IMG/VR virus record: IMGVR_UViG_3300027138_000006
Span: 1 to 44,637 of that record
Length of the DNA stretch: 44,637 nucleotides
Reading direction: 5' to 3' (one strand)
From: a virus
Shown here: positions 12,698-36,080 of the stretch, one piece after another
Numbering within the stretch: the first letter of the stretch is position 1
Layout: every line of letters begins with the position of its first letter
The notes under the pieces: model-generated
Databases searched by the model: none
Seen by the model: the letters and a program-made list of their open reading frames with translations, nothing else
Told to the model about the DNA's origin: nothing
Program-made: the position numbers and the translations under genes

Positions 12698-12975
12698 TGA
12701 TATGCTCTAATAAAGAATGCGGCATAGAGTTTGAGCCTAAAACACATAACCAAAAGTATCATAACGATGAATGCTGCAGAGTTGCTACAAACAGACGCAT
12801 TATGGAAAAGTATTATGAGAAAAAAGCTATTAGGCAAGGTGCGGACCGTGGTTGTAAAAAATGTGGTTTTCAGCTAAGCAGATACAATGACACTCTTTTG
12901 TGTGCTTCATGTCAAAAAAAGACAGATGTCGGCAAAAGATCTAGCATATTGGATAGAATAAATGAAATTAGCTGA
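12697..12975 (+). CDS. Zinc-finger protein
   Basis: 92 residues. Two Cys clusters: CSNKECGIEF with H and C near HNDECC, then CKKCG and CASC. Between them is a basic helical segment (TNRRIMEKYYEKKAIRQGA). This arrangement suggests two zinc ribbons binding nucleic acid or a protein partner. It ends overlapping the RuvC gene start. Function not known. Confidence 0.7.
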   Translation: MICSNKECGIEFEPKTHNQKYHNDECCRVATNRRIMEKYYEKKAIRQGADRGCKKCGFQLSRYNDTLLCASCQKKTDVGKRSSILDRINEIS

Positions 12976-13528
12976 GCTAATAAAAACTAAAGCTAATAGG
13001 GTTTTAGGTATAGATGCCTCAACAAACTCGATAGCTTTTTGCCTCATGGAGAATAATGTCCCGATTAAATGGGGCAAAATAGAACTTAGCGGTGCCGACA
13101 TTTATGAAAAAATATATGATGCTAAGGTTAAAATGCATGCTATGCTAAATGAATTGGAGAGTGACTATATAGCAGTAGAGGGTGCCATACTTGTCAGATC
13201 CCCCGATGCTGTGATAAAATTGTCTTATGTCTATGGAGTTGTTATTGCTGAGCTTATGTCTACTGGTGCTAAGGTTATTACTATTAGTCCATCCTCGTGG
13301 CAGGCGTACATTGGCAACAAAAATCCGACAAAGGATGAAAAGTCTGCAATAAGATTAGCAAACCCAGGATATGCAGACTCCTGGTATAAAAATCAACTAC
13401 GCAATATGCGTAAACAAAGAACTGCAAATTATTTTAATGATAAGTATAATATTGTGGTAAACGATTTTGATGTGGCAGATTCATTTGGAATTGCTCACTA
13501 TGCCAATAAGGTGTTGACAGAACGATGA
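12962..13528 (+). CDS. ruvC: RuvC-like Holliday junction resolvase
   Basis: 188 residues. RNase-H-fold resolvase motifs: D18 in VLGIDASTN, E73 in DYIAVEGA, and the D170/D173 pair in FDVADSFGIAHYA; the YGVVIAELM and SPSSWQ segments also match RuvC-type proteins. It resolves four-way junctions produced by recombination before packaging. Overlaps both neighbours (ATGA junction downstream). Confidence 0.85.
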   Translation: MKLAELIKTKANRVLGIDASTNSIAFCLMENNVPIKWGKIELSGADIYEKIYDAKVKMHAMLNELESDYIAVEGAILVRSPDAVIKLSYVYGVVIAELMSTGAKVITISPSSWQAYIGNKNPTKDEKSAIRLANPGYADSWYKNQLRNMRKQRTANYFNDKYNIVVNDFDVADSFGIAHYANKVLTER

Positions 13529-13671
13529 AACTATATCAAAGCCAGACCTGGATGTATAGAAGATATGTTGTTCAAAAGAAAACGGTAACTGAAATTGCCG
13601 AAGAGTGTAAGGTTTCTGCTATGACTATACAGAGAGCATTAGACAAGTTTGGGTTGGTTAAAAAACGATGA
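13525..13671 (+). CDS. Small helix-turn-helix protein
   Basis: 48 residues, ATG overlapping the RuvC stop. TVTEIAEECKVSAMTIQRAL (about residues 21-40) is a canonical helix-turn-helix, like the recognition module of resolvases or sigma-70 region 4. A basic C-terminus follows. Likely a transcription factor or DNA-binding accessory. It ends overlapping the methyltransferase ATG. Confidence 0.7.
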   Translation: MKLYQSQTWMYRRYVVQKKTVTEIAEECKVSAMTIQRALDKFGLVKKR

Positions 13672-14213
13672 GCAAGGACATATGGTTAGAGGCTAACGAA
13701 GAAACTGCTGGAGACCTTATTCTTACTGGATATGTTGGTCCGTTTAAAGACATGCCAGTGTACAATGAAGTTAAGTCTTTATTTGGAAACGGATCTATTG
13801 CTCTAGACTTTGGTTGTGGTGTTGGAAGAAACTCGGTAGCACTTGCAGAGACATACGGCAAGGTAATATCCTTTGATCTTCCCAGCATGATTGATTTAGT
13901 TCCACAAGAAAATAAACTAAGTAACATATCATATACAACAGACTGGGAGTATGTTAAAGAATTTAAATTTGATATAGTACTGGCAAGTCTTGTATTTCAG
14001 CATATTGAAGATTCAGAGTTAGATTCATACCTAAATGACTTGTCTCAGATAGTGGACAGATTAGTTCTTCATAGCAGAACATGGATTGATCATTCAGCTT
14101 CACAGGTATTGCCAATTGTAGAAAAATATTTTATAATTGATACGATAGAATATTCAAGAGATCCCAATAGCCCTATTGATGATCATTTTATTGCAACACT
14201 AAATAAGAGGTAA
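13668..14213 (+). CDS. SAM-dependent methyltransferase (class I)
   Basis: 181 residues. Motif I ALDFGCGVGRNS at 45-56 binds SAM, and FDIVLASLVFQHIED is motif-IV-like. It lacks the NPPY or DPPY of DNA amino-methyltransferases, so the substrate is open: small molecule, nucleotide or protein. It lies next to a DUF1599 (nucleotide-modification associated) gene, which hints at nucleotide chemistry but does not prove it. Confidence 0.8.
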   Translation: MSKDIWLEANEETAGDLILTGYVGPFKDMPVYNEVKSLFGNGSIALDFGCGVGRNSVALAETYGKVISFDLPSMIDLVPQENKLSNISYTTDWEYVKEFKFDIVLASLVFQHIEDSELDSYLNDLSQIVDRLVLHSRTWIDHSASQVLPIVEKYFIIDTIEYSRDPNSPIDDHFIATLNKR

Positions 14214-14218
14214 ACATA

Positions 14219-14560
14219 ATGGCGGGATATCCAGAAAAAGATAAAGGCTATCAGATGTGGGTTACAGACTTACAGCTAATAGCAACAAAGGCACCATCTG
14301 GTCAAAAGATTATTACAGAGTGCCTTGAAATAGCAGGAATGTTAATTGAAAAGAATATATCATACGGAAACTCTGCGCTAGAGCCAATCCGTATATTTTC
14401 AAAGGCGGATTCAACAGAGCAGATCCGTGTAAGAATTGATGATAAGCTAAATAGGATTCAAAATGATCAGGCATTTCCAGGAGACAATGATATTGATGAT
14501 TTAATTGGCTACCTAATATTGCTTAAAATAGCCAACAAAGTTGCACTTTCAGTCGACTGA
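14219..14560 (+). CDS. DUF1599 / nucleotide modification associated domain 1 protein
   Basis: 113 residues. The run YGNSALEPIRIFSKAD, then RVRIDDKLNRI and DLIGYLILLKIA matches the DUF1599 (Nmad1) family, which is found in phages and linked to modified nucleotides. It may act in nucleotide metabolism or DNA hypermodification. It is the last gene before a leaderless promoter that begins the packaging segment. Confidence 0.75.
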   Translation: MAGYPEKDKGYQMWVTDLQLIATKAPSGQKIITECLEIAGMLIEKNISYGNSALEPIRIFSKADSTEQIRVRIDDKLNRIQNDQAFPGDNDIDDLIGYLILLKIANKVALSVD

Positions 14561-14569
14561 GAGTATACT
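14541..14569 (+). promoter_or_regulatory. Leaderless promoter for the terminase segment
   Basis: TTGCAC (14541-14546), 17-nt spacer, TATACT (14564-14569), then 7 nt and the ATG at 14577. No Shine-Dalgarno lies between, so the transcript would start on or next to the ATG. Confidence 0.65.
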
Positions 14570-14576
14570 CTAGTAT

Positions 14577-15125
14577 ATGTCTGAGATAGAGTTAACTAAT
14601 CATTTTGACCGTATGAATACCGTTGTATCAGAATTACTTAAAGGAAACAACCCCACCCAAATAGCAACCATTACAGGCTTTAAAAGAGCCGAAGTAGTTG
14701 AGCTAGTAGAAGAGTGGAAGAGTGTTGTCCACAACGACACAGCGGCCCGTGACAGGGCAAAAGAGGCTATCTCTGGGGCAGACCGTCATTACGCAATGCT
14801 TATTAAAGAAGCCTGGAAAACAGTAGAAGATGCAGACGCACAAGGACAACTAAATGTTAAATCAACAGCATTAAAGCTTATTGCAGATATTGAAGGAAAA
14901 AGAATCGGCATGCTGCAAGAAATAGGATTGCTGGATAACGCTGAGCTAGCTAACCAGATTGCAGAGACAGAAAGAAAGCAAGACATACTTGTCAAAATAC
15001 TAAAAGAGGTTACCGCAAGCTGCTCAAAATGTAAAATGGATGTAGCAAAAAGATTGTCTCAGGTTACTGGCATAGTAGAGCCAGTATTTATAGAGGCGGA
15101 TGTCATAGAAACGGAAGTGTCATGA
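14577..15125 (+). CDS. Putative terminase small subunit
   Basis: 182 residues. An N-terminal helix-turn-helix (GNNPTQIATITGFKRAEVVE, residues 23-42) is followed by long helices and a CSKCKMDVAKRL segment. Small terminase subunits have such an HTH plus coiled coil, and the large subunit lies 3.7 kb downstream on the same strand with a cassette in between. No other small-subunit candidate is visible. Leaderless translation is predicted from the upstream promoter. It could alternatively be another DNA-binding protein. Confidence 0.5.
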   Translation: MSEIELTNHFDRMNTVVSELLKGNNPTQIATITGFKRAEVVELVEEWKSVVHNDTAARDRAKEAISGADRHYAMLIKEAWKTVEDADAQGQLNVKSTALKLIADIEGKRIGMLQEIGLLDNAELANQIAETERKQDILVKILKEVTASCSKCKMDVAKRLSQVTGIVEPVFIEADVIETEVS

Positions 15126-17674
15126 GCAACAGGCTTTTCGTATTTGATTTAGATGGCGTTCTTGTAGACAGCAAACAAATACATTTTGATTCATTAAACC
15201 TTGCCCTAAAAGAGATAGATGAAAAATATGTTATATCAGAAGAAGATCATGCACAAATTTTTGAAGGATTAAGTACAAATCAAAAACTAAAAATATTAAG
15301 CGAAACTCGTGGTCTACCAGAAGAAGATCATGAAAAAATATGGGGTCTAAAACAAAAAAAATCAATTCAGTTTTTTCAAGATTTGCCTGAAGACGATGAA
15401 CTAATTCAAATATTTAAAATGATTAAATCCTACGGTGTAGATATTGCCGTAGCAAGTAACTGTATTAGAGACACGGTTGAGACCTGCCTTAAATCTTTAG
15501 GCATTTACAATGAAGTAAATTTTTATTTAGGAAATCAAGATGTTGCTTACCCAAAGCCTAGTCCAGAAATATATTTGAGGTGTATGGATGAATTAGGTAG
15601 TGATAAATGGAGCACTGTTATTTTTGAGGACAGCTTGATTGGGCGCACTGCAGCCTTAGCAAGTGGTGCTACATTAGCAAGTATTAACAGCAGAATTGAT
15701 TTGACATCTAAACTTGTTTTAGAATATTTAAACCCAAAAAGAAAAAAAATAAATGTTCTTATCCCAATGGCTGGTGAAGGCTCTAGATTTACTGAAGCGG
15801 GATATGCTATACCGAAGCCCTTGATTGAAATTCATGGGAAATCAATGATTAATTTAGTTTACGACTCTATAGATTTAGACGCCCATTATATTTTTATTGC
15901 AAAATCAGAGCATATAGAAGAATTTAATTTACAAAAACATATAAGCGAATTCTGTAAAGATTTTACTATTATTCCACAGGATAACAAGTTGGATGGAGCT
16001 GCACTATCATCTCTTTTGGCAAAAGATCTTATTAATAATGATTCCCATTTAATAATTGCTAATTCAGATCAGTATGTTAGATGGAATTCTAAAAAAGAAT
16101 TGGACTCCTGGATTCAATCAGGGATAGATGGATCCGTACTAACCTTTTTATCTAATGAAAATAAATGGTCATATGCAGAAATAAAAGATTATTTTGTTAA
16201 GCAGGTTCATGAAAAAATAGTAGTTGGCCAAGAAGCAACTTGCGGCATATATTACTGGAAGTCTGGATCTGATTTTGTAAAGTACGCTGAAATGATGATT
16301 GAAAAAGGAATAAAAACTAATAATGAATTTTATGTAGCTCCAGTTTATAACCAAGCAATAGGAGATGGTAAGATTATATCTTATTCAAGGGTAAAAGAGA
16401 TGCGTGGCCTTGGAACCCCAGAGGATCTAGAAAAGTTTGTCCTGGGCAGCCTTCCATCATTTAAACCTGAAGATAAAAATAAATATTTTTTTAACAACTC
16501 AGATAATTTGCCAAAAAACAATGACTCCTATGTTGAAAATATATTTAGGATGACTCCTTCAGAAATTTGTATATCTTACAAAAATGCTAAATACGAAGTT
16601 TTTGATCAGGATGAAGAGGGCAAATTTGTCAACGCCTTAAATTTAATAAAAGGCTACAGGCATCCTTCTTTTAACCCAGTAATCACTTCAATAGACAACG
16701 ATTACGTTAAAAAAGAAAATGAAAAATCTGTTTTTTTAATAGTTTATACTACAAGATTTTATCACATATACTTAGAAGTTCTTCCAAAACTATTTTTCTT
16801 AAAAAAAATAGACCCTGATTTTAAAGTAATTCTTTTAGGAGACCACAAACTTGACAAAAATAAAAATTTTATTGGGATGGACCTTAAAAATTTAAATATA
16901 CTTCCAAGCAGAGAAGAAGAGTGTGCCTCTTTAAAGTTCTGGCTTGATGCTTTAGACATAGAATTTGAATGCCTTGACAAGAAAAGTTTTGCAGGAACCA
17001 ATTTAACATTTGAAAAGTCATATGTGTTCTATGAAAAAATGGAAACAGTAGCTCCGACTTTAGAACTAGACAAAACAATTCTAGATTCTAAAAAAGCATA
17101 TTGTGAAAAATGGTTAAACCCCAGCATTAAATTAAATTCAATAGAATATATTCCTACTTGGATTTATCATAGAAGCACTGGCGCACCTGAAATAGATGCA
17201 ATAACTTATACAAGAAATGAAATAGAGTTATTTTTTAAAAATAAAAAAAATATAAGAAAAAAAATATATTTCTCTAGGAAAAACTACGAAAGAGTACACC
17301 CTAGCGAAGTAGCTATTGAAAATTTTTATCGCAGGAAGGGTTTTGAGGCTATATGCATGGAAGATTTTACTCCAGAAGAACAGATAAATATCTGCAGATC
17401 AGCATCAGACATAGTTTGTTATGTAGGATCAGGAATGGTTAATTTGTATTATTTGGACCCACTAGATGATCGTGAAGTTAACATTACAGTATTAGCTTTA
17501 GATGATCCTAACCAAGCAGGATTTGTTGAACAAATGTATAACCACTATTCAGATCTGATTACATCGGAAAGTAGACAGTTTGGAGATCACATAAAGATTA
17601 AATTATTAAATATTCCTGCAGATATGGAGTACAGGCATACTAACCCAACTTTATCGAAATTGTTGCAGGAATAA
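15122..17674 (+). CDS. HAD + sugar nucleotidyltransferase + GT61-like glycosyltransferase fusion
   Basis: 850 residues in three parts. Residues 1-205: HAD-IA phosphatase/mutase with FDLDGVLVDS (D9, D11), VASNCIRDT, YPKPSPE and FEDSLIG, resembling beta-phosphoglucomutase-like enzymes. Residues about 209-440: nucleotidyltransferase with PMAGEGSRF and KPLIEI, the fold of NDP-sugar pyrophosphorylases. Residues about 520-850: GT61/DUF563-like region with SRKNYERVHP, then TPEEQ and VGSGMVN. Together they could dephosphorylate or isomerise a sugar phosphate, activate it as NDP-sugar and transfer it. Its ATG overlaps the terminase-small-like stop (ATGA). The order is unusual and the substrate unknown. 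Confidence 0.82.
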   Translation: MSNRLFVFDLDGVLVDSKQIHFDSLNLALKEIDEKYVISEEDHAQIFEGLSTNQKLKILSETRGLPEEDHEKIWGLKQKKSIQFFQDLPEDDELIQIFKMIKSYGVDIAVASNCIRDTVETCLKSLGIYNEVNFYLGNQDVAYPKPSPEIYLRCMDELGSDKWSTVIFEDSLIGRTAALASGATLASINSRIDLTSKLVLEYLNPKRKKINVLIPMAGEGSRFTEAGYAIPKPLIEIHGKSMINLVYDSIDLDAHYIFIAKSEHIEEFNLQKHISEFCKDFTIIPQDNKLDGAALSSLLAKDLINNDSHLIIANSDQYVRWNSKKELDSWIQSGIDGSVLTFLSNENKWSYAEIKDYFVKQVHEKIVVGQEATCGIYYWKSGSDFVKYAEMMIEKGIKTNNEFYVAPVYNQAIGDGKIISYSRVKEMRGLGTPEDLEKFVLGSLPSFKPEDKNKYFFNNSDNLPKNNDSYVENIFRMTPSEICISYKNAKYEVFDQDEEGKFVNALNLIKGYRHPSFNPVITSIDNDYVKKENEKSVFLIVYTTRFYHIYLEVLPKLFFLKKIDPDFKVILLGDHKLDKNKNFIGMDLKNLNILPSREEECASLKFWLDALDIEFECLDKKSFAGTNLTFEKSYVFYEKMETVAPTLELDKTILDSKKAYCEKWLNPSIKLNSIEYIPTWIYHRSTGAPEIDAITYTRNEIELFFKNKKNIRKKIYFSRKNYERVHPSEVAIENFYRRKGFEAICMEDFTPEEQINICRSASDIVCYVGSGMVNLYYLDPLDDREVNITVLALDDPNQAGFVEQMYNHYSDLITSESRQFGDHIKIKLLNIPADMEYRHTNPTLSKLLQE

Positions 17675-17675
17675 A

Positions 17676-18818
17676 ATGAATGTGAACCTTAAGGGCGTAG
17701 TTGACGTATACAAAATGAATGACGACGAAGTTTGTTTAAAGTATAAAAACCCGTCGTTTAAGTTTTATGAATTAATGCACAGGAGGCCTAATTCTCCTAC
17801 CAGGTGGGACAAAGCAAATAAAGCAATGAGTTTGCCTGAAAGTATTAAAGATCCACTTTGCCCAACTTCCCCCATGATCAATCCAATTGTCGACAAAATA
17901 CACGACAATCCTAAAAAATCTTTTGATGGAAGATCAGTATATTTAATTGCTTATACTCCTAGATTTTTTCATTTCATGCTAGAGCATCTGCCTAAAATAT
18001 TTTTCTTAAAAGAAAAAGACCCAAACTTTAAGTTACTTCTTTTTTCTAACGAAGATAAAGATACAGATGGAATATTTTTAGGGTTAAAGGGAAATGCAGA
18101 GCACGGCAGGGAAGAAGATGGATCTTCATTTAAATTTTGGCTTGATTTACTAGAGATTGACTATGTGTGCTTTAATTTAAAAGATTTAGAATCTATGAAT
18201 TTAGATTTTGAATACGCATATGTTTTTTACGAAAATTCCTTTATGAAACAGAGAAGTGGTAGCGATGCATATGATTCAGTAATGCTTAATGGCTCGCCCG
18301 TGCAGGTGGACGGGAAAGAATATTTTGTTTCAATTACTTTAGATAGAGGCAGTTCAGATATAGACGGGAAAACAGTTGACTGGGTGCGTCCGTATATAAC
18401 TAAACAGGTAGAGTCAAAGTCCATAGTTTCTGATGCTGACAAAAAAATATACATATCTAGAAAAAATTACTCAAGGGTTCACCCTAATGAAAAAGAAATA
18501 GAAAGTCATTTTTTGTCTAAAGGTTATCAGTCGGTATGCATGGAAGATATGAATCCGATAGAACAAATAAAGCTTGTCAGGGAGTGCACTGATATAGCCT
18601 GTCATGTAGGATCATCTATAGTTAATCTGTATTATGGTAAACCAAATACAAAGGTAACAGTCCTGGCAACTAAAAAAGAAAATGATCTTCTAAGCTACTA
18701 TAATGTTATTTTAACAAACAATGGAATAGAAGTTGATAATGTATTGTTACCAGAAATTATTGATGGAAGTGTATCTGAGGCTATGACAAAGTATGTATTG
18801 GAGTACCATGGAATTTGA
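17676..18818 (+). CDS. Stand-alone GT61-like glycosyltransferase, paralogue of the upstream fusion
   Basis: 380 residues, ATG preceded by AGGA. It has the same signature as the C-terminal third of the upstream fusion: LIAYTPRFFHFMLEHLPKIF, then ISRKNYSRVHPNE, NPIEQIKL and VGSSIVNLYY. It therefore is a GT61-like (DUF563) enzyme lacking the HAD and nucleotidyltransferase domains, and the pair look like a tandem duplication. It may use the sugar donor made by the upstream enzyme. The acceptor could be cell wall, virion or DNA; not determinable here. It overlaps the terminase start by 11 nt. Confidence 0.75.
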   Translation: MNVNLKGVVDVYKMNDDEVCLKYKNPSFKFYELMHRRPNSPTRWDKANKAMSLPESIKDPLCPTSPMINPIVDKIHDNPKKSFDGRSVYLIAYTPRFFHFMLEHLPKIFFLKEKDPNFKLLLFSNEDKDTDGIFLGLKGNAEHGREEDGSSFKFWLDLLEIDYVCFNLKDLESMNLDFEYAYVFYENSFMKQRSGSDAYDSVMLNGSPVQVDGKEYFVSITLDRGSSDIDGKTVDWVRPYITKQVESKSIVSDADKKIYISRKNYSRVHPNEKEIESHFLSKGYQSVCMEDMNPIEQIKLVRECTDIACHVGSSIVNLYYGKPNTKVTVLATKKENDLLSYYNVILTNNGIEVDNVLLPEIIDGSVSEAMTKYVLEYHGI

Positions 18819-20598
18819 TTTTAGCAATCTAATTGATATATTAGATGGAGAAGAGTTTGAAGAAAGACCAGTAGACCTAAGAACTTTTGTGCAGAGTCCA
18901 GAATATTTAGGTCTCCCACCATTGTCTGAATATCAGCATACCCTCATTGAAAAAAGTTCACAGATTTATAAAGAGTCTACACTGATTAAGCTTTTTGGTG
19001 AAGATGAAGGCGTCAGAATGTTTAAGCAAACAGCTAACGAAGTTGTTGCCCAGCTTGGCAAGGGTTCTGGAAAAGATTACTGCTCTACAATATCAGTAGC
19101 GTATATAGTATATTTACTGTTGTGCCTTAAAGATCCAGCAACCTATTATGGCAAGCCTCCTGGGGACTCAATTGATATTATTAATATTGCTATTAACTCT
19201 CAGCAAGCAAACAATGTTTTCTTTAAGGGATTTAAAACACGAATAGATAAGTCTCCATGGTTTACTGGAAAATACGAAGCAAAAGCTTCTGAAATGAAGT
19301 TTGATAAGGCCATAACAGTACACTCAGGACACTCAGAGCGTGAAGCGTGGGAAGGTTATAACGTTATCGTAATCATTCTCGATGAAATTTCAGGCTTTGC
19401 TACAGAGAATACAACTGGTCATGAGCAAGCTAAAACTGGTGGAGCTATATATGATATGTATAGAGCATCGGTAGACTCACGTTTTCCAGACTTTGGTAAA
19501 GTTATTCTTCTGTCATTTCCTAGATATAAAAATGATTATATTCAGCAAAGATATAATGATGTTGTGGCGGAAAAAGAAGTTGTAACTAGAACTCATCATT
19601 TTAAGCTAGACGATGATCTTCCAGATGGAACAGAAGGTAACGAATTTGATATTGAGTGGGAAGAAGACCACATCATCTCGTACAAGTATCCTAAAATGTA
19701 TGCGCTTAAAAGACCCACATGGGAAGTAAATCCAGTAAGAAAGATTGAAGACTTTAAGGTTGCGTTCTACAAGAATGCACCAGATGCCTTGGGAAGATTT
19801 GCCTGCATGCCAACAGATGCAGTAGATGCATTTTTTAAATCCAGAGAAAAAATTGAGAATGCATTTAAGAACACAGCCTTAGCTGTGGATAACTTTGGAA
19901 GATTTGAAGACTGGTTTGCACCAGACCCAGATAAAGAATATTTTATACACGTCGACCTTGCACAAAAGCATGACCATTGTGCAGTAGCAATGTCACACGT
20001 AAAAAAGTGGGTTAATGTTAAGGTGACAGATACATATTCTCAGCCAGCACCTATTGTTGAAGTAGACGTTGTAAGATATTGGACACCAACTCCAGATAAG
20101 TCTGTAGATTTTACAGAAGTAAAAGATTACATATTGTCTTTAAGGTCTAAAGGGTTTAAGGTAAAAGTTTGTACATTTGACAGGTGGAACTCACACGATA
20201 TGATGCAGCAACTAAAGCAGTATGGAATTAATACAGAAACGCTATCTGTTGCCAAAAAACATTACGACGATATGGCAATGGTTGTGGCAGAAGATAGGCT
20301 GGATGGCCCACACATTCCTCTGCTTATAGATGAATTGCTTCAACTTAAAATTATGAGAGATAGAGTTGATCACCCTAGAAAAGGATCTAAAGACTTAGCT
20401 GACGCTGTATGCGGATCTATATTTAATGCAATTAAAAGAAGTAGGCCCGACAACAATGAAGAAATAGATATTCACACCTACAGTTCCTTGAAATGGGATA
20501 GGCAGGATGAAGACGACACAACTGTTTTAAATATGATAAGAGCACCAAGAATGCCTCAAAACTTATCAAATGCACTAGAAGGAATGGAAATAATATGA
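18808..20598 (+). CDS. terL: Terminase large subunit
   Basis: 596 residues from ATG 18808 (TTGGAG upstream; ATG at 18793 is also possible). ATPase Walker A GKGSGKD at 84-90, Walker B VIVIILDE at 186-193, and a nuclease domain with HVDLAQKHDH (D383) and KDLADAVCGS near the end. Motor that cuts and packages phage DNA into heads. The Walker A is of the G-K-G-S-G-K type, as in many actinophage large terminases. It sits behind the GT61 cassette that separates it from the probable small subunit. Confidence 0.92.
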   Translation: MEFDFSNLIDILDGEEFEERPVDLRTFVQSPEYLGLPPLSEYQHTLIEKSSQIYKESTLIKLFGEDEGVRMFKQTANEVVAQLGKGSGKDYCSTISVAYIVYLLLCLKDPATYYGKPPGDSIDIINIAINSQQANNVFFKGFKTRIDKSPWFTGKYEAKASEMKFDKAITVHSGHSEREAWEGYNVIVIILDEISGFATENTTGHEQAKTGGAIYDMYRASVDSRFPDFGKVILLSFPRYKNDYIQQRYNDVVAEKEVVTRTHHFKLDDDLPDGTEGNEFDIEWEEDHIISYKYPKMYALKRPTWEVNPVRKIEDFKVAFYKNAPDALGRFACMPTDAVDAFFKSREKIENAFKNTALAVDNFGRFEDWFAPDPDKEYFIHVDLAQKHDHCAVAMSHVKKWVNVKVTDTYSQPAPIVEVDVVRYWTPTPDKSVDFTEVKDYILSLRSKGFKVKVCTFDRWNSHDMMQQLKQYGINTETLSVAKKHYDDMAMVVAEDRLDGPHIPLLIDELLQLKIMRDRVDHPRKGSKDLADAVCGSIFNAIKRSRPDNNEEIDIHTYSSLKWDRQDEDDTTVLNMIRAPRMPQNLSNALEGMEII

Positions 20599-21338: not shown

Positions 21339-21758
21339 ATGGTAACAACATATACATGGGATCTTTTCAAGGATCCTTTTTTTATTGGCTTTAATCGTGA
21401 ACTTGAAAGAATGTCTAACGTGCACAGTGCTGCATCTCGTCAGTCATATCCACCATACGATGTATTAAAGCTAGATGAGGATACATTCTTAGTATCTCTT
21501 GCAGTGGCAGGATTCACAAAAGAAGACATTAATCTATCTGTAGATAACGGTACATTAGTTATTTCTGGAGAAATTACTGAAGTTACAGATGCAGAAGTTT
21601 TACATAAAGGAATTGCTGCACGTAAATTTACAAGGTCTTTTGCCCTCGGAGAGTACATGGAAGTATCTAGCGCTTCTCTAAAGGACGGCATGCTTAATAT
21701 CAGTATTAGCCGCTTAGTCCCAGAAGACAAGAAGCCAAAGACCATAAAAATTAAATAA
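21339..21758 (+). CDS. Hsp20-family small heat-shock protein
   Basis: 139 residues. Alpha-crystallin domain with VLKLDEDTFLVSLAVAGF, LVISGE, IAARKFTRSFALGEYMEV and the C-terminal IKIK tail, with an N-terminal region of about 35 residues. Oligomeric holdase chaperone; phage homologues are known from other phages and are thought to help virion protein folding or host stress. Own promoter (21271) and strong SD imply high expression. Confidence 0.9.
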   Translation: MVTTYTWDLFKDPFFIGFNRELERMSNVHSAASRQSYPPYDVLKLDEDTFLVSLAVAGFTKEDINLSVDNGTLVISGEITEVTDAEVLHKGIAARKFTRSFALGEYMEVSSASLKDGMLNISISRLVPEDKKPKTIKIK

Positions 21759-21873: not shown

Positions 21874-22281
21874 ATGTTTGAGTACAGAATTAAGCAAGTA
21901 ACAAAAATTGTAGATGGAGACACAGTAGATGTCGACATAGATTTAGGATTTAGCATTTCATATGCTCAAAGACTTAGACTGGCAGGAATTGATACCCCAG
22001 AGTCTAGAACTACCGATAAACTTGAAAAGACATTAGGTCTCGAATCAAAAGAATATCTTAAGTCTAAGTTTAAAGACGCAAATGTTATTGTTGTAAAAAC
22101 AGAAAAGCCAGACAGCACAGAAAAGTATGGTCGCATACTTGGCTGGATTTACATAGACGGCAACACAAAGTCTATTAACGAACAGATGATTGAAGATGGA
22201 TACGCTTGGGGATACATGGGCGAAACTAAGGTTAAAGATTTTGTAGCCTTAGCAGAGAAGAGAAAAAAGAGCGGTAAGTGA
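21874..22281 (+). CDS. SNase-like (thermonuclease) domain protein
   Basis: 135 residues. The motif VDGDTVDVDIDLGF, then RLRLAGIDTPES, and EKYGRILGWIY contain the conserved Asp, Arg and Glu of staphylococcal-nuclease-fold enzymes. It has no signal peptide, so it acts in the host cytoplasm or with the virion. SD TAGGAGA; overlaps the next gene by one base. May degrade host DNA or act in DNA metabolism. Confidence 0.85.
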   Translation: MFEYRIKQVTKIVDGDTVDVDIDLGFSISYAQRLRLAGIDTPESRTTDKLEKTLGLESKEYLKSKFKDANVIVVKTEKPDSTEKYGRILGWIYIDGNTKSINEQMIEDGYAWGYMGETKVKDFVALAEKRKKSGK

Positions 22282-23084
22282 TGGCTGTAAATGGCAAGCC
22301 AAATATTCATTGGATGCAGAGGTTTGATGGGGGTAGCCCAGAAGAACTCAAAACTTTATCTAACGTACTAGAGTTTGCTGGATATTACTCTACTTTAACC
22401 GTATATCACTCACAAATTCCTGACTATTGGATCAAGATAGCCAATATAATTAATCCAGACCATAAATTAAAGTATATGATTGCAATGAGAACATATGCAA
22501 TAAGCCCAGAATACTGTGCAATGATGTGTGAAGCGTTTAATGAGCTGTCCCCCAACAGGCTGATATTAAATATTGCTGCTGGAGATATACAGTCTGACGA
22601 AACTAGCGTATCTGATGTTGTTGCAATATCAAATCTTTTAACAACGCATGAGGATAGGGTAAAATATACTTCTGAGTGGTTAGAAAAATTTACAAACCTG
22701 ACCTTGCTAAAAAATAAACCAGAAATAGTTATAAGCGGAACATCTAAAGAAACTATTGTAAATGCCAATAATTATGCCGATGCACACCTATCTATGTACT
22801 CTAGCTATAAAGATGGGTTAAAAGATTTAATTAAAACAAACAAAAAAATAGTCTCTGGGCCAATAATAATACGTGATACTAAAGAAGAGGCAGAGGATAT
22901 ATATAATCAATTGCCAAACAATATGATTAAAGGGTCTTGCCTTTTTGGTACAGAAAATGAGATAATAGAACAGATAAAAAATATGGGAAAAGAAGGAATA
23001 ACGGATATTTTAGCAAGCAGAGCTCAGATGGATGATGAGCACTATCGAATACACAGAATGGTAAAAAAAATAAATGATATCTAA
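22281..23084 (+). CDS. Luciferase-like (LLM) flavin/F420-dependent monooxygenase
   Basis: 267 residues from ATG 22281. TIM-barrel pattern of the bacterial luciferase-like superfamily: WMQRFDGGSPEELKTLS followed by a GYYS segment, then LILNIAAGD and LFGTENEIIEQIKNMGKEG, the last being the G-T-x-x-x-I-x-(E/D)-x-(I/L) strand of these enzymes. Substrate and cofactor (FMN or F420, the latter common in actinobacteria) are unknown. It follows SNase and precedes a JmjC/cupin-like oxygenase, so the three may act in one modification pathway. Phage examples are rare. Confidence 0.75.
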   Translation: MAVNGKPNIHWMQRFDGGSPEELKTLSNVLEFAGYYSTLTVYHSQIPDYWIKIANIINPDHKLKYMIAMRTYAISPEYCAMMCEAFNELSPNRLILNIAAGDIQSDETSVSDVVAISNLLTTHEDRVKYTSEWLEKFTNLTLLKNKPEIVISGTSKETIVNANNYADAHLSMYSSYKDGLKDLIKTNKKIVSGPIIIRDTKEEAEDIYNQLPNNMIKGSCLFGTENEIIEQIKNMGKEGITDILASRAQMDDEHYRIHRMVKKINDI

Positions 23085-23664
23085 AGATGAAGTAAGTCAA
23101 ATGATTGAGCAGGCCAGGTCTGACAAGAAGATCCTGCAGATAAAATCGATGTTTATTAATGTGCCAAAGTGGGATCAATTCATTAATCATTTAGATTATC
23201 ATTTTAACACTACGCCAGAAGGCCCTCAAGAAGAGTCTGATGAATGGCACACAATACATAATGGGACTGTTGCTAAAACTGGTTATTATTTCCATGTCAG
23301 AGAAGCAACATCAAAGGGTGAGTTTACTTTTTTCCCAGAATGTAAAGATGTGGTTAATTTTTTCAACGAAGTGTATGACGAAAAAACTAACGGAGGTGGA
23401 ACATTCTTGAATATAGTTGGCAACGGCATGATGGTTCCAACGCATGTAGATGATGTAGACAGCGTGTTTTGGCAATGTCAAGGATCAACAATTTGGCAAG
23501 TATTTTTAAACAAAGATGATCAGGGTAGAGGGATAGAACCAATACAGACAGTAACAGTGGAACCAGGAGATATAATCGTTGTTCCCAGGGGAGTATTCCA
23601 TGGATTAAACCCACATGTTTCAAGAGCAGCTATAGCATTCAGATATAAAGAGGTGCGGGAATAG
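23074..23664 (+). CDS. JmjC/cupin-like Fe(II)-2-oxoglutarate oxygenase
   Basis: 196 residues. Double-stranded beta-helix with PTHVDDVDS (H124, D126) and VFHGLNPH (H176), plus the strand VEPGDIIVVPRG typical of cupin-4/JmjC proteins. This HxD...H triad binds Fe(II) for 2OG-dependent hydroxylation. The target is unknown. Translation is coupled to the LLM gene (10-nt overlap), supporting a shared pathway. Confidence 0.75.
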   Translation: MISKDEVSQMIEQARSDKKILQIKSMFINVPKWDQFINHLDYHFNTTPEGPQEESDEWHTIHNGTVAKTGYYFHVREATSKGEFTFFPECKDVVNFFNEVYDEKTNGGGTFLNIVGNGMMVPTHVDDVDSVFWQCQGSTIWQVFLNKDDQGRGIEPIQTVTVEPGDIIVVPRGVFHGLNPHVSRAAIAFRYKEVRE

Positions 23665-23908: not shown

Positions 23909-26584
23909 TTGACTAGAAAGTTAAAGTATTTTTTAACCAGCCTTTTTATAATCGGCTGGCTTTTCCTTTTTAGTCCTAACTTTGCTAATGCTAATGAGCC
24001 ACCAGCCCCCTCAGAGCAAGTTGTTGTAAGCCCTGCACAGCAGGCAGTAAATACAGCCATTGCAACCGCAACTACAGAAGTTGCACAGGCCATAGCAGCA
24101 TCAGATACGTCCACTGTCACAACAGCAACAGCTGTACAGGCAGTAACAGCATCTAATGCCGCAGTAACTGCCGCAACAACGGCTGTGACTGCAGCAACTA
24201 CAGCAGTGGCGGAAGTGTCTAATGTGTCCACAGCCGTAGAAACAGCGACAGCGGTTGTTCAAACAATTACTTCAACGGTAGCATCCGTTACACAAGCGGT
24301 AGCAGCAATTCCAGTAAGTGCTACAACTCAAACACCAGAAGTTGCTACAGCACAAGTAGCTGTTACAGCAGCGGTTCCCGTTATTGAATCTGCAACTGCA
24401 ACGGTTATAGCAACAGCATCCCCTTTAATGCCTGAAACCCCCACTACAGTTACTCAAGTAGCAACCGCAATTACAACAGAAGTAGCACAGGCTGCAACAG
24501 CTTCTACTGCAATACAGGTAGCTCAGGCGGCAATAGATACCGCAACGGCCACAGTAGCAACAGCAACTACGGCTGTAGCAGCAGTAACTCCTGCACGGAC
24601 AGAGGCTCAAACACAATTAACTCAAGCAAACGTAGCAATTAATAATGCTCAAGATGCAGTCAATGCCCTTGCTGCAACTATTGGTACAACCACAAATGTT
24701 TTATCTAATGTAGATGATGCTGGTGTTCGCATGAATCTTCCATTTAATTTACAGATGGGCGGAGTCACATATAATAATGTTTTTGTAGGATCTAATGCGA
24801 CAATCACCTTTGGAGTAAATGAGGGTGCAAATTATTATTCTACACCTAATGCACCTTCCATTTCTATAGCAGGGTATGACTGGACTACTTGGAGTAATGG
24901 ATCTGGAATTACATACTCAACAACTACCAATACACTTAGCGTTGCTTGGGATCTTAGAGTTTATCCTTTGCAAACAGCAGAAACACAAATGACTCAAGTT
25001 AGATTTAATGCGGATGTTAATCCTTCAGATGGTGCCTGGCAGGCAGATGTAAGCGTGACTGGACCAATCCCAAATGGTGCTAGATTTAACGTAAGAGAAA
25101 CTACAAATGGTCCCGTAACAAATATTAGTAATACAAGCACTACTACGGGATTTACTGGAACAATTAGTCAAGGCGCTGCATTTACTCCCACCCCTGATCC
25201 AGACAATTCAACAGTCTTGGCAGCAATTGATACAGCAAATGCACAAATTGCTACATTAAACTCAGCAGTTACTGCTATTGTTGCAACAAATACAGCAAAT
25301 ACAAATACAGTTATTGCACCAATTGCAACTGTTTCACAAAATACTGTAACGGCATTATCAACAGCAAGCACAACATTGACTGAAAAGGTGGCAGACCTTG
25401 CAATTGTTTCTACAGCCGTAGAAAAAGTAACTACAGCACCTACAATAGTGGCAGCAGCTCAAACAGTAATTGATGCAGTTCCTGCACCAGCGCCCTTGCC
25501 AGCCCCTGCTCCACCTGCACCAGTTGAACCACCCGTAGTCGTGCCACCTGTAGACACTACACCCGTAGTCGTGCCACCTGTAGACACTACACCCGTAGTC
25601 GTGCCACCTGTAGACACTACACCCGTAGTCGTGCCACCTGTAGACACTACACCAGTAACTACCACACCAGTTGATACCACACCTGTGGAAACAGAACCAG
25701 TAGACACAGAGCCTGTGGAAACAGAACCAGTAGACACAGAGCCTGTGGAAACAGAACCAGTAGACACAGAGCCTGTGGAAACAGAACCAGTTGATACCAC
25801 ACCTGTGGAAACAGAACCAGTAGACACAGAGCCTGTGACGGGATCAGAAGAAGATGTAACAAATACAGTTGATGATGCATTGGAAGATGGTAAAATTGAT
25901 AGTACAGAAGTTGAAGCAATTGCAGAAGCTATGTCTGCAGATGGTGAAATTGATGCAGAAGAAACTAATCAGTTAATTGAAGCATTGGCAGAAGATGGAA
26001 AAGTTTCTGTAGCAGATCAAGAAGCAGTTCTGGAAGCACTTGCGTCAGACGGCGAAGTTTCAAAAGAGGATGTTGCAGCCATTGTTGAATTAGCTAACTC
26101 AGATGGTAAATTATCTGAAGCAGAAAAAGATATTGTTGCCGATGCATTAATTCAATCTGTTCCAGAAGGTGAAAATCTTACTAAAGAACAGGTAGCGGAA
26201 GCTGGAATTAAGTTATCAGATTTGCCAGCAAGCACACCAGTTGATGTTAGAACATCTGAAAATGGTGACTCGGTTGTAATTACTGCAGAAGTTGCAGTAC
26301 AAGTAGAATTAATATCTGACCCAGCGGCATTTGCACAAGAGTTATTTAATGACCCAGGAGCAGCCCTACAGGCCTTGGGAAGCATAGGTGCAGATATGAC
26401 AGAAGGCGAAAGAGAAGAGGCAACTGAAATGGTTGTAGCAACAGTTGTAGCAGCAGGTGCAGCAATTAACGCAGCAGCAGTTGCAACAGGAGGAGCCACA
26501 GGGGGTAGCACAGGAGGCGGAGGAAATTCTGGTGGAGGCTCAGGAGCTAATTCACCAGGTCGAGGAGGAAGAAGAAAATGGTAA
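23909..26584 (+). CDS. Giant secreted repeat-containing surface protein
   Basis: 891 residues, TTG start after TAGGAG. Signal peptide (residues 1-28, hydrophobic core then ANA). Residues about 45-265 are A/T/V-rich and helical, about 265-425 a beta-rich domain (PFNLQMGGVTYNNVFVG and ITFG), about 540-643 Pro/Val/Thr tandem repeats, and about 645-750 EF-hand-like D-G-x-I/V-x3-E loops. The C-terminus is Ala/Gly-rich and ends in RRKW. It looks like an actinobacterial surface protein. Signal peptides are unusual for phage fibres, so it is probably displayed by the infected cell, perhaps blocking superinfection. Confidence 0.8.
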   Translation: MTRKLKYFLTSLFIIGWLFLFSPNFANANEPPAPSEQVVVSPAQQAVNTAIATATTEVAQAIAASDTSTVTTATAVQAVTASNAAVTAATTAVTAATTAVAEVSNVSTAVETATAVVQTITSTVASVTQAVAAIPVSATTQTPEVATAQVAVTAAVPVIESATATVIATASPLMPETPTTVTQVATAITTEVAQAATASTAIQVAQAAIDTATATVATATTAVAAVTPARTEAQTQLTQANVAINNAQDAVNALAATIGTTTNVLSNVDDAGVRMNLPFNLQMGGVTYNNVFVGSNATITFGVNEGANYYSTPNAPSISIAGYDWTTWSNGSGITYSTTTNTLSVAWDLRVYPLQTAETQMTQVRFNADVNPSDGAWQADVSVTGPIPNGARFNVRETTNGPVTNISNTSTTTGFTGTISQGAAFTPTPDPDNSTVLAAIDTANAQIATLNSAVTAIVATNTANTNTVIAPIATVSQNTVTALSTASTTLTEKVADLAIVSTAVEKVTTAPTIVAAAQTVIDAVPAPAPLPAPAPPAPVEPPVVVPPVDTTPVVVPPVDTTPVVVPPVDTTPVVVPPVDTTPVTTTPVDTTPVETEPVDTEPVETEPVDTEPVETEPVDTEPVETEPVDTTPVETEPVDTEPVTGSEEDVTNTVDDALEDGKIDSTEVEAIAEAMSADGEIDAEETNQLIEALAEDGKVSVADQEAVLEALASDGEVSKEDVAAIVELANSDGKLSEAEKDIVADALIQSVPEGENLTKEQVAEAGIKLSDLPASTPVDVRTSENGDSVVITAEVAVQVELISDPAAFAQELFNDPGAALQALGSIGADMTEGEREEATEMVVATVVAAGAAINAAAVATGGATGGSTGGGGNSGGGSGANSPGRGGRRKW
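25531..25650 (+). repeat. Four perfect 30-bp tandem repeats in the surface-protein gene
   Basis: Units at 25531, 25561, 25591 and 25621 are identical over 30 bp and encode a 10-residue P-V-V-V-P-P-V-D-T-T period in frame. Perfect identity at the nucleotide level suggests a recent expansion or slipped-strand hot spot. Confidence 0.9.
25651..25830 (+). repeat. Six further 30-bp tandem units, slightly diverged
   Basis: Continues the same 10-residue period (P-V-E-T-E-P-V-D-T-E type) as degenerate copies at 25651, 25681, 25711, 25741, 25771 and 25801, with 25711 and 25741 identical. It forms the end of the Pro-rich stalk. Confidence 0.85.
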
Positions 26585-34819: not shown

Positions 34820-34941
34820 TGTCTAAAGAACAAATTTGTGAGATAGCGGGGTGCAGCAACACTGCATCCCGAATAACAAACACAGAAAGTAAATACATTA
34901 TGATCTGTGAAGATTGTTGGCATGAAAAGTATAGAAAATGA
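34819..34941 (+). CDS. Small zinc-binding protein
   Basis: 40 residues with CEIAGC near the start and CEDC near the end, a four-Cys site. ATG overlaps the H1-like stop (TAATG); its stop overlaps the oxygenase ATG. Function unknown. Confidence 0.55.
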   Translation: MSKEQICEIAGCSNTASRITNTESKYIMICEDCWHEKYRK

Positions 34942-35462
34942 TAAATGTCTTAGAAAATTTTGTATCTACCCAAGAGTGTGATGATCTTTTTGACCATTAC
35001 AACAAGAAAATATGGGACGCAGCAGACCCTTTTGTAAAAACTGGATTCGGGATATCTGAAAAAGAAATTAAAGAGTTTTATGAAAAGGATACACTCCTCT
35101 TGCAAATTGTTAAACGAATGGGCAAAGAGATATCGGATCACTATGGGGAGCCAATGGAGCTTAAAACATTATTTCATAGCGTAATGGTTCCTGGAGCAGT
35201 AAACCCATTGCATTGGGACAACTATATTGAAAATGGGCAAGAAGATGTGTCAAGCTTGTTTTATATTAACGAAGAATATGAAGGCGGAGAGCTTAATTTT
35301 CCAGATCAAGATTTATTGATAAAGCCTAAAAAGGGAACCTTTATATTTTTTAGAGGAGAAGAATCATTGATGCACGAAGTAAAAGTTGTTAAGTCTGGCA
35401 GCAGAAATGCCTTTGTTGGATTTTTTTGGCCAACTAGAATAAGATTGTCTGTAATCGGATAA
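34938..35462 (+). CDS. 2-oxoglutarate/Fe(II) oxygenase A
   Basis: 174 residues. Prolyl-4-hydroxylase-type fold: HWD with H92 and D94, H146 in MHEV and R156 in SGSRNAF as the 2OG contact. An NEEYEGGELNFP strand matches this family. Substrate unknown; candidates are surface proteins, nucleotides or small molecules. It directly precedes a related oxygenase. Confidence 0.8.
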   Translation: MINVLENFVSTQECDDLFDHYNKKIWDAADPFVKTGFGISEKEIKEFYEKDTLLLQIVKRMGKEISDHYGEPMELKTLFHSVMVPGAVNPLHWDNYIENGQEDVSSLFYINEEYEGGELNFPDQDLLIKPKKGTFIFFRGEESLMHEVKVVKSGSRNAFVGFFWPTRIRLSVIG

Positions 35463-36080
35463 ATGCAAATACTATCTGATAAAGTTTTTGTTTTAGAAAA
35501 TTTTTTATCAGAACAAACATGTGATTTTTTAGCAGAAAGTTTTTCTAAAAACTTAGTAAATAGTCCTAGCTGGGAAGAAGGAAATGGCGACTATGGAGCT
35601 GGATCTAGTAAAGATTTTTGGAAAAAAGGAATGTCTGCGGGGCCAGCATACGCACATTCTTATCGGAAAGAAGAGCTTTCCGCAAATAATAAAATACTAC
35701 CTTATGATGGAGATAATGATCTGGCAAAAGATCTCTTGACTGGCGTAGCGCTTTTACAAGAAAAAGCAGTGTCTGATATATTTAAAAAAAATATATATAT
35801 GAAGCATATGATGTATTGTTTTATGGAAACTGGGGCAGCCAATGCTTTGCACCACGACAATTGGCTAGAAGATCAGGCTAATGACCATTCTGGGCTTTTG
35901 TATTTAAGCGATGAATATGAAGGCGGGCTCCTAGAGTTCCCACAACACAACATTTCAATAAAGCCTAAAAAGGGTACTTTTATCTGTTTTGTGGGAGACG
36001 ATACCCTACCCCATCAGGTAACAGAAATTACCTCTGGCAATAGAATAAATCTAATAACATTCTACTCAATTAGGACTTAG
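35463..36080 (+). CDS. 2-oxoglutarate/Fe(II) oxygenase B (tandem paralogue)
   Basis: 205 residues, starting at the base after the stop of A. Same family signatures: LHHDN with H130 and D132, LSDEYEGGLLEFP, H184 in PHQV and R194 in SGNR. Diverged from A, with about 30 extra residues, so an old duplication or functional pair. Ends before a promoter. Confidence 0.8.
   Translation: MQILSDKVFVLENFLSEQTCDFLAESFSKNLVNSPSWEEGNGDYGAGSSKDFWKKGMSAGPAYAHSYRKEELSANNKILPYDGDNDLAKDLLTGVALLQEKAVSDIFKKNIYMKHMMYCFMETGAANALHHDNWLEDQANDHSGLLYLSDEYEGGLLEFPQHNISIKPKKGTFICFVGDDTLPHQVTEITSGNRINLITFYSIRT

Follow-up and report, generated by a model that had tools for sequence, protein, structure and literature searches.

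A HAD-nucleotidyltransferase-GT61 fusion inserted at the terminase junction of freshwater actinophages and exchanged at its GT61 end

Between the genes for a probable small terminase subunit (TerS) and the large terminase subunit (TerL) of an uncultivated virus, an ORF of 850 amino acids joins a HAD, a sugar nucleotidyltransferase (NT) and a GT61 glycosyltransferase domain (GTa) in one protein (positions 15122-17674 of the window, i.e., of the whole stretch of 44,637 nucleotides analysed here), followed by a second, stand-alone GT61 gene (GTb). This cassette is an insertion at an otherwise empty site and is absent from most relatives. Within it, HAD-NT forms a constant base, and exchange affects the C-terminal GT61 part. 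We consider a role as an accessory module for glycan tailoring rather likely, in which the cassette makes and transfers its own NDP-sugar; the insertion site and the exchange of the GT61 tips are its most interesting aspects. The features are listed in Table 1. The three-domain ORF described in the earlier note on this DNA was recovered with all three Pfam domains above the cut-off, and the three motif sets quoted there (FDLDGVLVDS, PMAGEGSRF and SRKNYERVHP) are all present.

Table 1. Genes and domains of the cassette and its surroundings (positions in the window)
Feature	Position	Strand	Evidence and remarks
RuvC-like resolvase	12962..13528	+	phrog_159 2e-21; 78-89% in fusion relatives; conserved left edge of the variable locus
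SAM methyltransferase in the RuvC-TerS slot	13668..14213	+	Pfam Methyltransf_25 5e-8; slot cluster c3
Probable TerS, 182 aa	14577..15125	+	44% to Streptomyces phage Francob gp86; phrog_9507, unknown function
Fusion domain 1, HAD-IA phosphatase/mutase, residues 1-205	15122..15736	+	Pfam HAD_2 3.7e-22 (residues 7-185)
Fusion domain 2, sugar nucleotidyltransferase (NT), residues 206-445	15737..16456	+	NTP_transferase 1.2e-7 (216-382); PDB 4evw 8.7e-12; phrog_3980 1.4e-57
Fusion domain 3, GT61 (GTa), residues 446-850	16457..17674	+	Pfam Glyco_transf_61 3.2e-10 (546-780); 57% to fused GT of L018; key residues R545, H548, R719, R724
Stand-alone GT61 (GTb), 380 aa	17676..18818	+	Pfam Glyco_transf_61 8.4e-15; R96, H99, R262, R267
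TerL	18808..20598	+	PHROG terminase large subunit 7e-13; 62% to Streptomyces phage terminases

The window derives from a 109.9-kb IMG/VR record (G001) which is syntenic with Streptomyces phage Francob and carries portal, protease, capsid and tail genes followed by genes for a helicase, DnaE, RecA, Cas4, RuvC, TerS and TerL. The record also encodes WhiB, a marker of actinophages (PMC10202952, PMC6802176), and no integrase was found in the three records searched for one (G001, G002 and G008). The window phage is a freshwater actinophage with relatives among the Streptomyces phages of the Francob group, and is probably lytic. The ORF upstream of the fusion was named by none of the libraries; it is a probable TerS because it abuts TerL in most relatives (65 of 73), and its Francob counterpart gp86 likewise lies directly upstream of TerL. 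The placement of the cassette between terminase subunits, as proposed previously, could thus be confirmed downstream, and upstream as a probable assignment. In the window phage and its relatives both terminase genes are located behind the replication genes and away from the capsid genes, so that little can be concluded about the virion from where the cassette lies. Coupling between the genes is tight: the stop codon of TerS and the start codon of the fusion share the sequence ATGA, GTb follows the fusion after a single base, and the end of GTb overlaps the TerL start by 11 nt if TerL begins at 18808, the codon favoured by homology, whose equivalent is used in relatives, instead of at 18793 as set by the ORF caller.

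A TerL scan yielded at least 552 relatives; 80 were kept, and 73 of these contained both TerS and TerL. In the 65 relatives mentioned above the two genes are contiguous, overlapping or at most 150 nt apart, most commonly with an overlap of 11 nt. The junction is filled in the other eight, with a HAD-NT-GT61 ORF in six and with an ORF resembling 2OG-Fe(II) oxygenases in two (L200 and L212). The cassette is missing even from a relative whose TerL is 96% identical to that of the window (L157). Comparison with such empty sites places the insertion point in the last codons of TerS, and the Gly-Ile/Val-stop with which the GT ORF ends in several cassette phages may be a remnant of the old TerS/TerL overlap. 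The GC content of the cassette is 25-33%, that of the flanks 35-41%, and DNA identity between pairs is about 85% in the flanks, about 70% in the HAD-NT part and 57-63% in the GT part. Rather than belonging integrally to the packaging region, the cassette is an insertion, and the majority of relatives do not have it.

Three other IMG/VR contigs (L001, L003 and L004) contain the entire fusion with 100% identity, and partial copies occur in two more (L002, 100%; L005, 94-98%). A single HAD-NT-GT61 ORF of 831-845 amino acids was also found in nine diverged phages (L008-L012, L018, which equals L019 and L235, L020, L021 and L022), as the search in other phages recommended by the earlier note had left to be seen. 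The fusion is thus known from ten distinct phages, always in the order TerS-[HAD-NT-GT61]-TerL. Values of dN/dS in the diverged comparisons are 0.19-0.28 for the HAD-NT and GT parts (GTa against L018, 0.28) and 0.04-0.07 for TerL, and the fusion is under purifying selection. That it is an assembly chimera or decaying junk has next to no probability: the low GC relative to the flanks would fit junk, as would a dN/dS of 0.68 for GTa against L005, a value with few changes underlying it, but the identical copies in several assemblies together with the ten distinct phages rule out chimerism, and the diverged dN/dS values lie well below 1.

All Pfam matches of the fusion and of GTb exceed the curated gathering cut-offs. 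In the HAD domain the HAD-IA motifs I-IV (DxD, S/T, K, D/E) are represented by D9, D11, S112, K145 and E169-D170, which are invariant in nine fusions. The closest solved structures are sugar-phosphate phosphatases and beta-phosphoglucomutases; the score for the beta-PGM equivalog TIGR01990 stays at 65.9 bits, below the cut-off of 189.4. Mutase, phosphatase and house-cleaning functions are all conceivable for the domain. The NT domain carries the signature of PF00483 with GxGxR (218-222), PKP (231-233) and the first Mg-binding Asp, D316, all invariant in the fusions. Of the catalytic Asp pair expected in the earlier note this first residue is kept, while a classical second Asp is not recognisable; its region holds the invariant E402 within NEFY (401-404), an N/G-E-F/L-Y motif common to 4evw, the nearest solved relative, which is named NDP-sugar pyrophosphorylase. 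An AF2 model of the whole fusion was poor (pLDDT 55) and was dropped as a guide to the domain arrangement.

The GT61-like identity assigned earlier to both transferases was borne out. PF04577 scores 40.8 bits for GTa and 55.7 bits for GTb, with a gathering threshold of 27. A search of PDB sequences with the GT61 parts gave no match, and the fold search alone succeeded: the AF2 model of GTb (pLDDT 74.5, pTM 0.80) was compared with the PDB by Foldseek, and 16 of 16 matches at E <= 0.001 were POMGNT2 (E 2e-8, probability 1.00, TMq 0.41-0.47); the top two matches in BFVD were phage proteins named 'Glycosyltransferase 61'. GTb is accordingly modelled with the GT-B fold of GT61, so that the absence of such a fold, which would have spoken against the assignment, is not what the model predicts; for GTa the fold is predicted only through homology (34%). 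According to a structure paper on EOGT from 2026, the UDP site of GT61 enzymes consists of an N-R-R constellation and a likely catalytic His, without a metal (PMC13123520). Matched by sequence to this published pattern, the R-R pair and the catalytic His are invariant in 12 of 12 GT sequences and are common to the phage enzymes and POMGNT2/EOGT. The phage proteins share only 12-16% identity with these eukaryotic secretory enzymes, would be cytoplasmic unlike them, and have Arg (Lys in L021) in place of the Asn. This Asn is no requirement for GT61 membership, since Proteobacterial GT61 enzymes also lack it (PMC13123520). A literature search on GT61 in phages returned no relevant paper, and the fusion and GTb proteins had no match in PADLOC.

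The two-domain HAD-NT unit itself is common in cyanophages and bacteria, and the fusion to GT61 is the unusual part. Pattern scans yielded at least 531 viral stretches with HAD-NT relatives as well as 49 bacterial and archaeal loci (Pelagibacter, Legionella, Methylophilaceae and others). Cyanophage proteins (Synechococcus phage B23 gp352, S-PRM1, S-CAM9; phrog_3980/phrog_8468) agree with the fusion in domain order and in the invariant catalytic residues and are 45-47% identical to it over residues 1-440. Unlike the fusion, they stop after the NT domain, and the GT61 part was unmatched in 25 of 25 matching phage records. Among the HAD-NT ORFs examined, 112 end after NT, and full-length ORFs with 390-410 additional amino acids occur only in the family of the window. 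The three-domain fusion was found in none of the 49 bacterial/archaeal loci and 25 phage records, counts bounded by the patterns and collections searched; as far as these sequences indicate, it is unusual and specific to this actinophage family.

It is the branch of HAD-NT nearest to the fusion that is linked to GT61. In the first scan a separate GT61 gene lay nearby in seven of 120 two-domain loci, exactly the seven that are at least 51% identical to the fusion, and in none of the 113 more distant ones; in a later scan, which shares some contigs with the first, this was the case in 12 of 15 loci with at least 50% identity and in none of 50 below. This distribution suggests a Rosetta-stone series in which the genes were neighbours first and then became fused. 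More distant HAD-NT loci keep other company. A gene of 143-150 codons with ISHRG, ENN and GHD motifs is located nearby in 88 fetched loci of phages, bacteria and archaea (e.g., L102:7374-7826, L107:5571-6002 and L015:7371-7823); its product is GDPD-like by motif, has no Pfam match and is possibly an unrecognised pathway partner of HAD-NT. Moreover, a LicD-family gene is found directly upstream of HAD-NT in nine Legionellales-type loci (L104, L109-L113, L115, L133 and L137). Because of these neighbours the NT product might be an NDP-alcohol instead of an NDP-sugar, and HAD-NT would then supply an activated alcohol such as a CDP-alcohol, with LicD belonging to a phospho-alcohol transferase family and with GT61 as a passenger or as a user of host NDP-sugar. 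We regard this as unlikely, as the branch that co-occurs with GT61 is the one that was then fused to it, and the GDPD-like gene was unmatched in G001 and G002 in a search run without a positive control. Two further domain arrangements were noticed among the viral relatives: a HAD-NT protein with a LAGLIDADG intein inside the NT domain (L271:8983-11484), and large contigs in which an NT domain is fused to a glutathione-peroxidase-like domain (PF00255; L278-L282).

Comparison of the GT and TerL trees demonstrated that the GT61 domain has been swapped between phages, with at least four types in circulation. GTa of the window groups with the GT of L018 (support 100/100) and GTb with the GTs fused in L008-L012 (100/100); the GT tree joins L020 with L022 (99/99), the TerL tree joins L020 with L010 (100/99). 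As GTa and GTb group with the fused GTs of different phages, GTb is no copy of GTa. A second GT61 gene is therefore present as reported earlier, and its reading as a tandem duplicate is ruled out; by tree position GTb is orthologous to the GT fused in L008-L012, and the window phage carries two tips that its relatives carry singly. The HAD-NT part of the window also goes with L018, whereas the phages with the most similar TerL (up to 96%) lack the cassette. GTb may have been added to an L018-like fusion, or GTa may have been inserted before a resident GTb.

The slot between RuvC and TerS next to the cassette (window 12962-14577) is variable as well and holds changing genes in 54 of 55 loci: GT32 (25), MobA-like NT of the NTP_transf_3 type (23), methyltransferases including FkbM types, GT25 (9) and GT2 (6) in varying combinations. 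The methyltransferase of the window (c3) is replaced in relatives by GT32, NT, GT25, GT2 or FkbM genes; its PADLOC match to mad2 is weak and looks like a generic match to a SAM domain. In Francob the same RuvC-TerL locus (gp76-gp82) is annotated with two glycosyltransferases, a nucleotidyltransferase and a phosphatase. These are separate genes, unlike the fusion, the NT belongs to the CTP_transf_like family, and homology to the cassette was ruled out by tblastn. Because the adjoining slot reshuffles GT, NT and methyltransferase genes and Francob carries unrelated genes of such functions there, the cassette represents a single insertion within a larger glycan locus of modular build.

From its domains the 850-aa fusion is probably a trifunctional cytoplasmic enzyme, and hydropathy analysis gave no transmembrane segments in the cassette proteins. 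The HAD domain would convert a sugar phosphate into a sugar-1-phosphate by dephosphorylation or isomerisation, the NT domain would turn this into an NDP-sugar, and the metal-independent GT-B domain of GT61 would transfer the sugar to an acceptor; GTb, drawing on the same pool of donor, would perform another transfer or contribute another specificity. The earlier proposal that one polypeptide activates and transfers a sugar is hence plausible from the domains and their conserved residues, from which we infer the activities, the donor sugar and the intramolecular hand-over.

For a virion protein as the acceptor we see nearly an even chance; this target is favored because of an actinophage precedent and because membrane parts and lysogeny genes are lacking. 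The precedent is the glycosylation of mycobacteriophage virions by Che8 gp110 and Corndog gp38 (Freeman et al. 2023, as cited in PMC12363180 and PMC11256854), actinophage-encoded glycosyltransferases that are likened to the cassette by function; fused sugar activation, as in the window, is not mentioned in the passages on this system. It is conceivable, at a rather low probability, that a fixed HAD-NT base with interchangeable GT61 tips acts as a glycotype switch. Each phage would then obtain virions with a different self-made sugar, independently of the host nucleotide-sugar metabolism, through recombination limited to the domain that recognises the acceptor or, like the window phage, through possession of two such domains.

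An acceptor in the cell envelope is doubtful. In this case the sugar would be added to a host surface polymer or a lipid-linked precursor, thereby blocking the adsorption of competing phages or adapting the surface while infection proceeds. Bacterial HAD-NT genes do occur among genes of surface-polysaccharide type (rhamnose-type and epimerase-like ORFs in L102, LicD in Legionella), the GT32, GT25 and FkbM families of the slot are typical of surface glycans, and domain swapping fits receptor competition. Lysogenic conversion is the usual context of serotype conversion, and without an integrase in the three records searched it is unlikely here; the cassette also encodes neither a membrane segment nor a flippase. 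Acceptors of other kinds are slightly less probable than the cell envelope.

DNA as the acceptor is improbable. A GT61 that glycosylates a modified base could shield the genome from host nucleases; cultivated Nanopelagicales phages have glycosyltransferases for which such a role has been suggested (PMC10202952), the cassette adjoins packaging and recombination genes, and the corresponding Francob region encodes a dNMP kinase. But G001 and G002, large fusion-bearing records whose completeness is not established, contain no member of the thymidylate-synthase/dCMP-hydroxymethylase family (PF00303), no Tet_JBP (PF12851) above the cut-off and no C5-cytosine methylase (PF00145). No route to a hydroxymethylated base was thus found in them, which argues against the known T4- or TET-type glycosylation of DNA, an acceptor that the earlier note left open. 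Moreover, 65 of the 73 close relatives live without the cassette, and the GT61 enzymes that have been characterised modify proteins or polysaccharides (PMC13123520).

Phage glycosyltransferases usually depend on host nucleotide sugars. One polypeptide that would activate and transfer its own sugar, and whose transferring domain is exchanged among phages that are otherwise alike, offers a compact example, open to testing, of how glycans are diversified by modules in freshwater actinophages and, if active, a convenient one-gene tool that makes and attaches a sugar. For the glycosyltransferases of freshwater actinophages, including those of the cultivated Nanopelagicales phages (PMC10202952), roles have so far only been proposed.

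Several other genes of the phage deserve mention. Oxygenases of the 2OG-Fe(II) type (PF13640) are encoded repeatedly, at window 34938-36080 and in the upstream part of G001 (L154), some of them near fibre or portal genes, and are possibly protein hydroxylases that create glycan acceptors. The window further encodes an Hsp20 small heat-shock protein (21339-21758), an adjoining pair of a luciferase-like monooxygenase and a JmjC_2/cupin protein (22278-23664), and an ORF of 891 amino acids (23909-26584) in which a stretch is rich in GC and in proline (extensin-like) and the GC skew is inverted. A ribonucleotide-reductase-like protein similar to domains of B12-dependent RNR is encoded elsewhere in G001 (L155:8547-10481).
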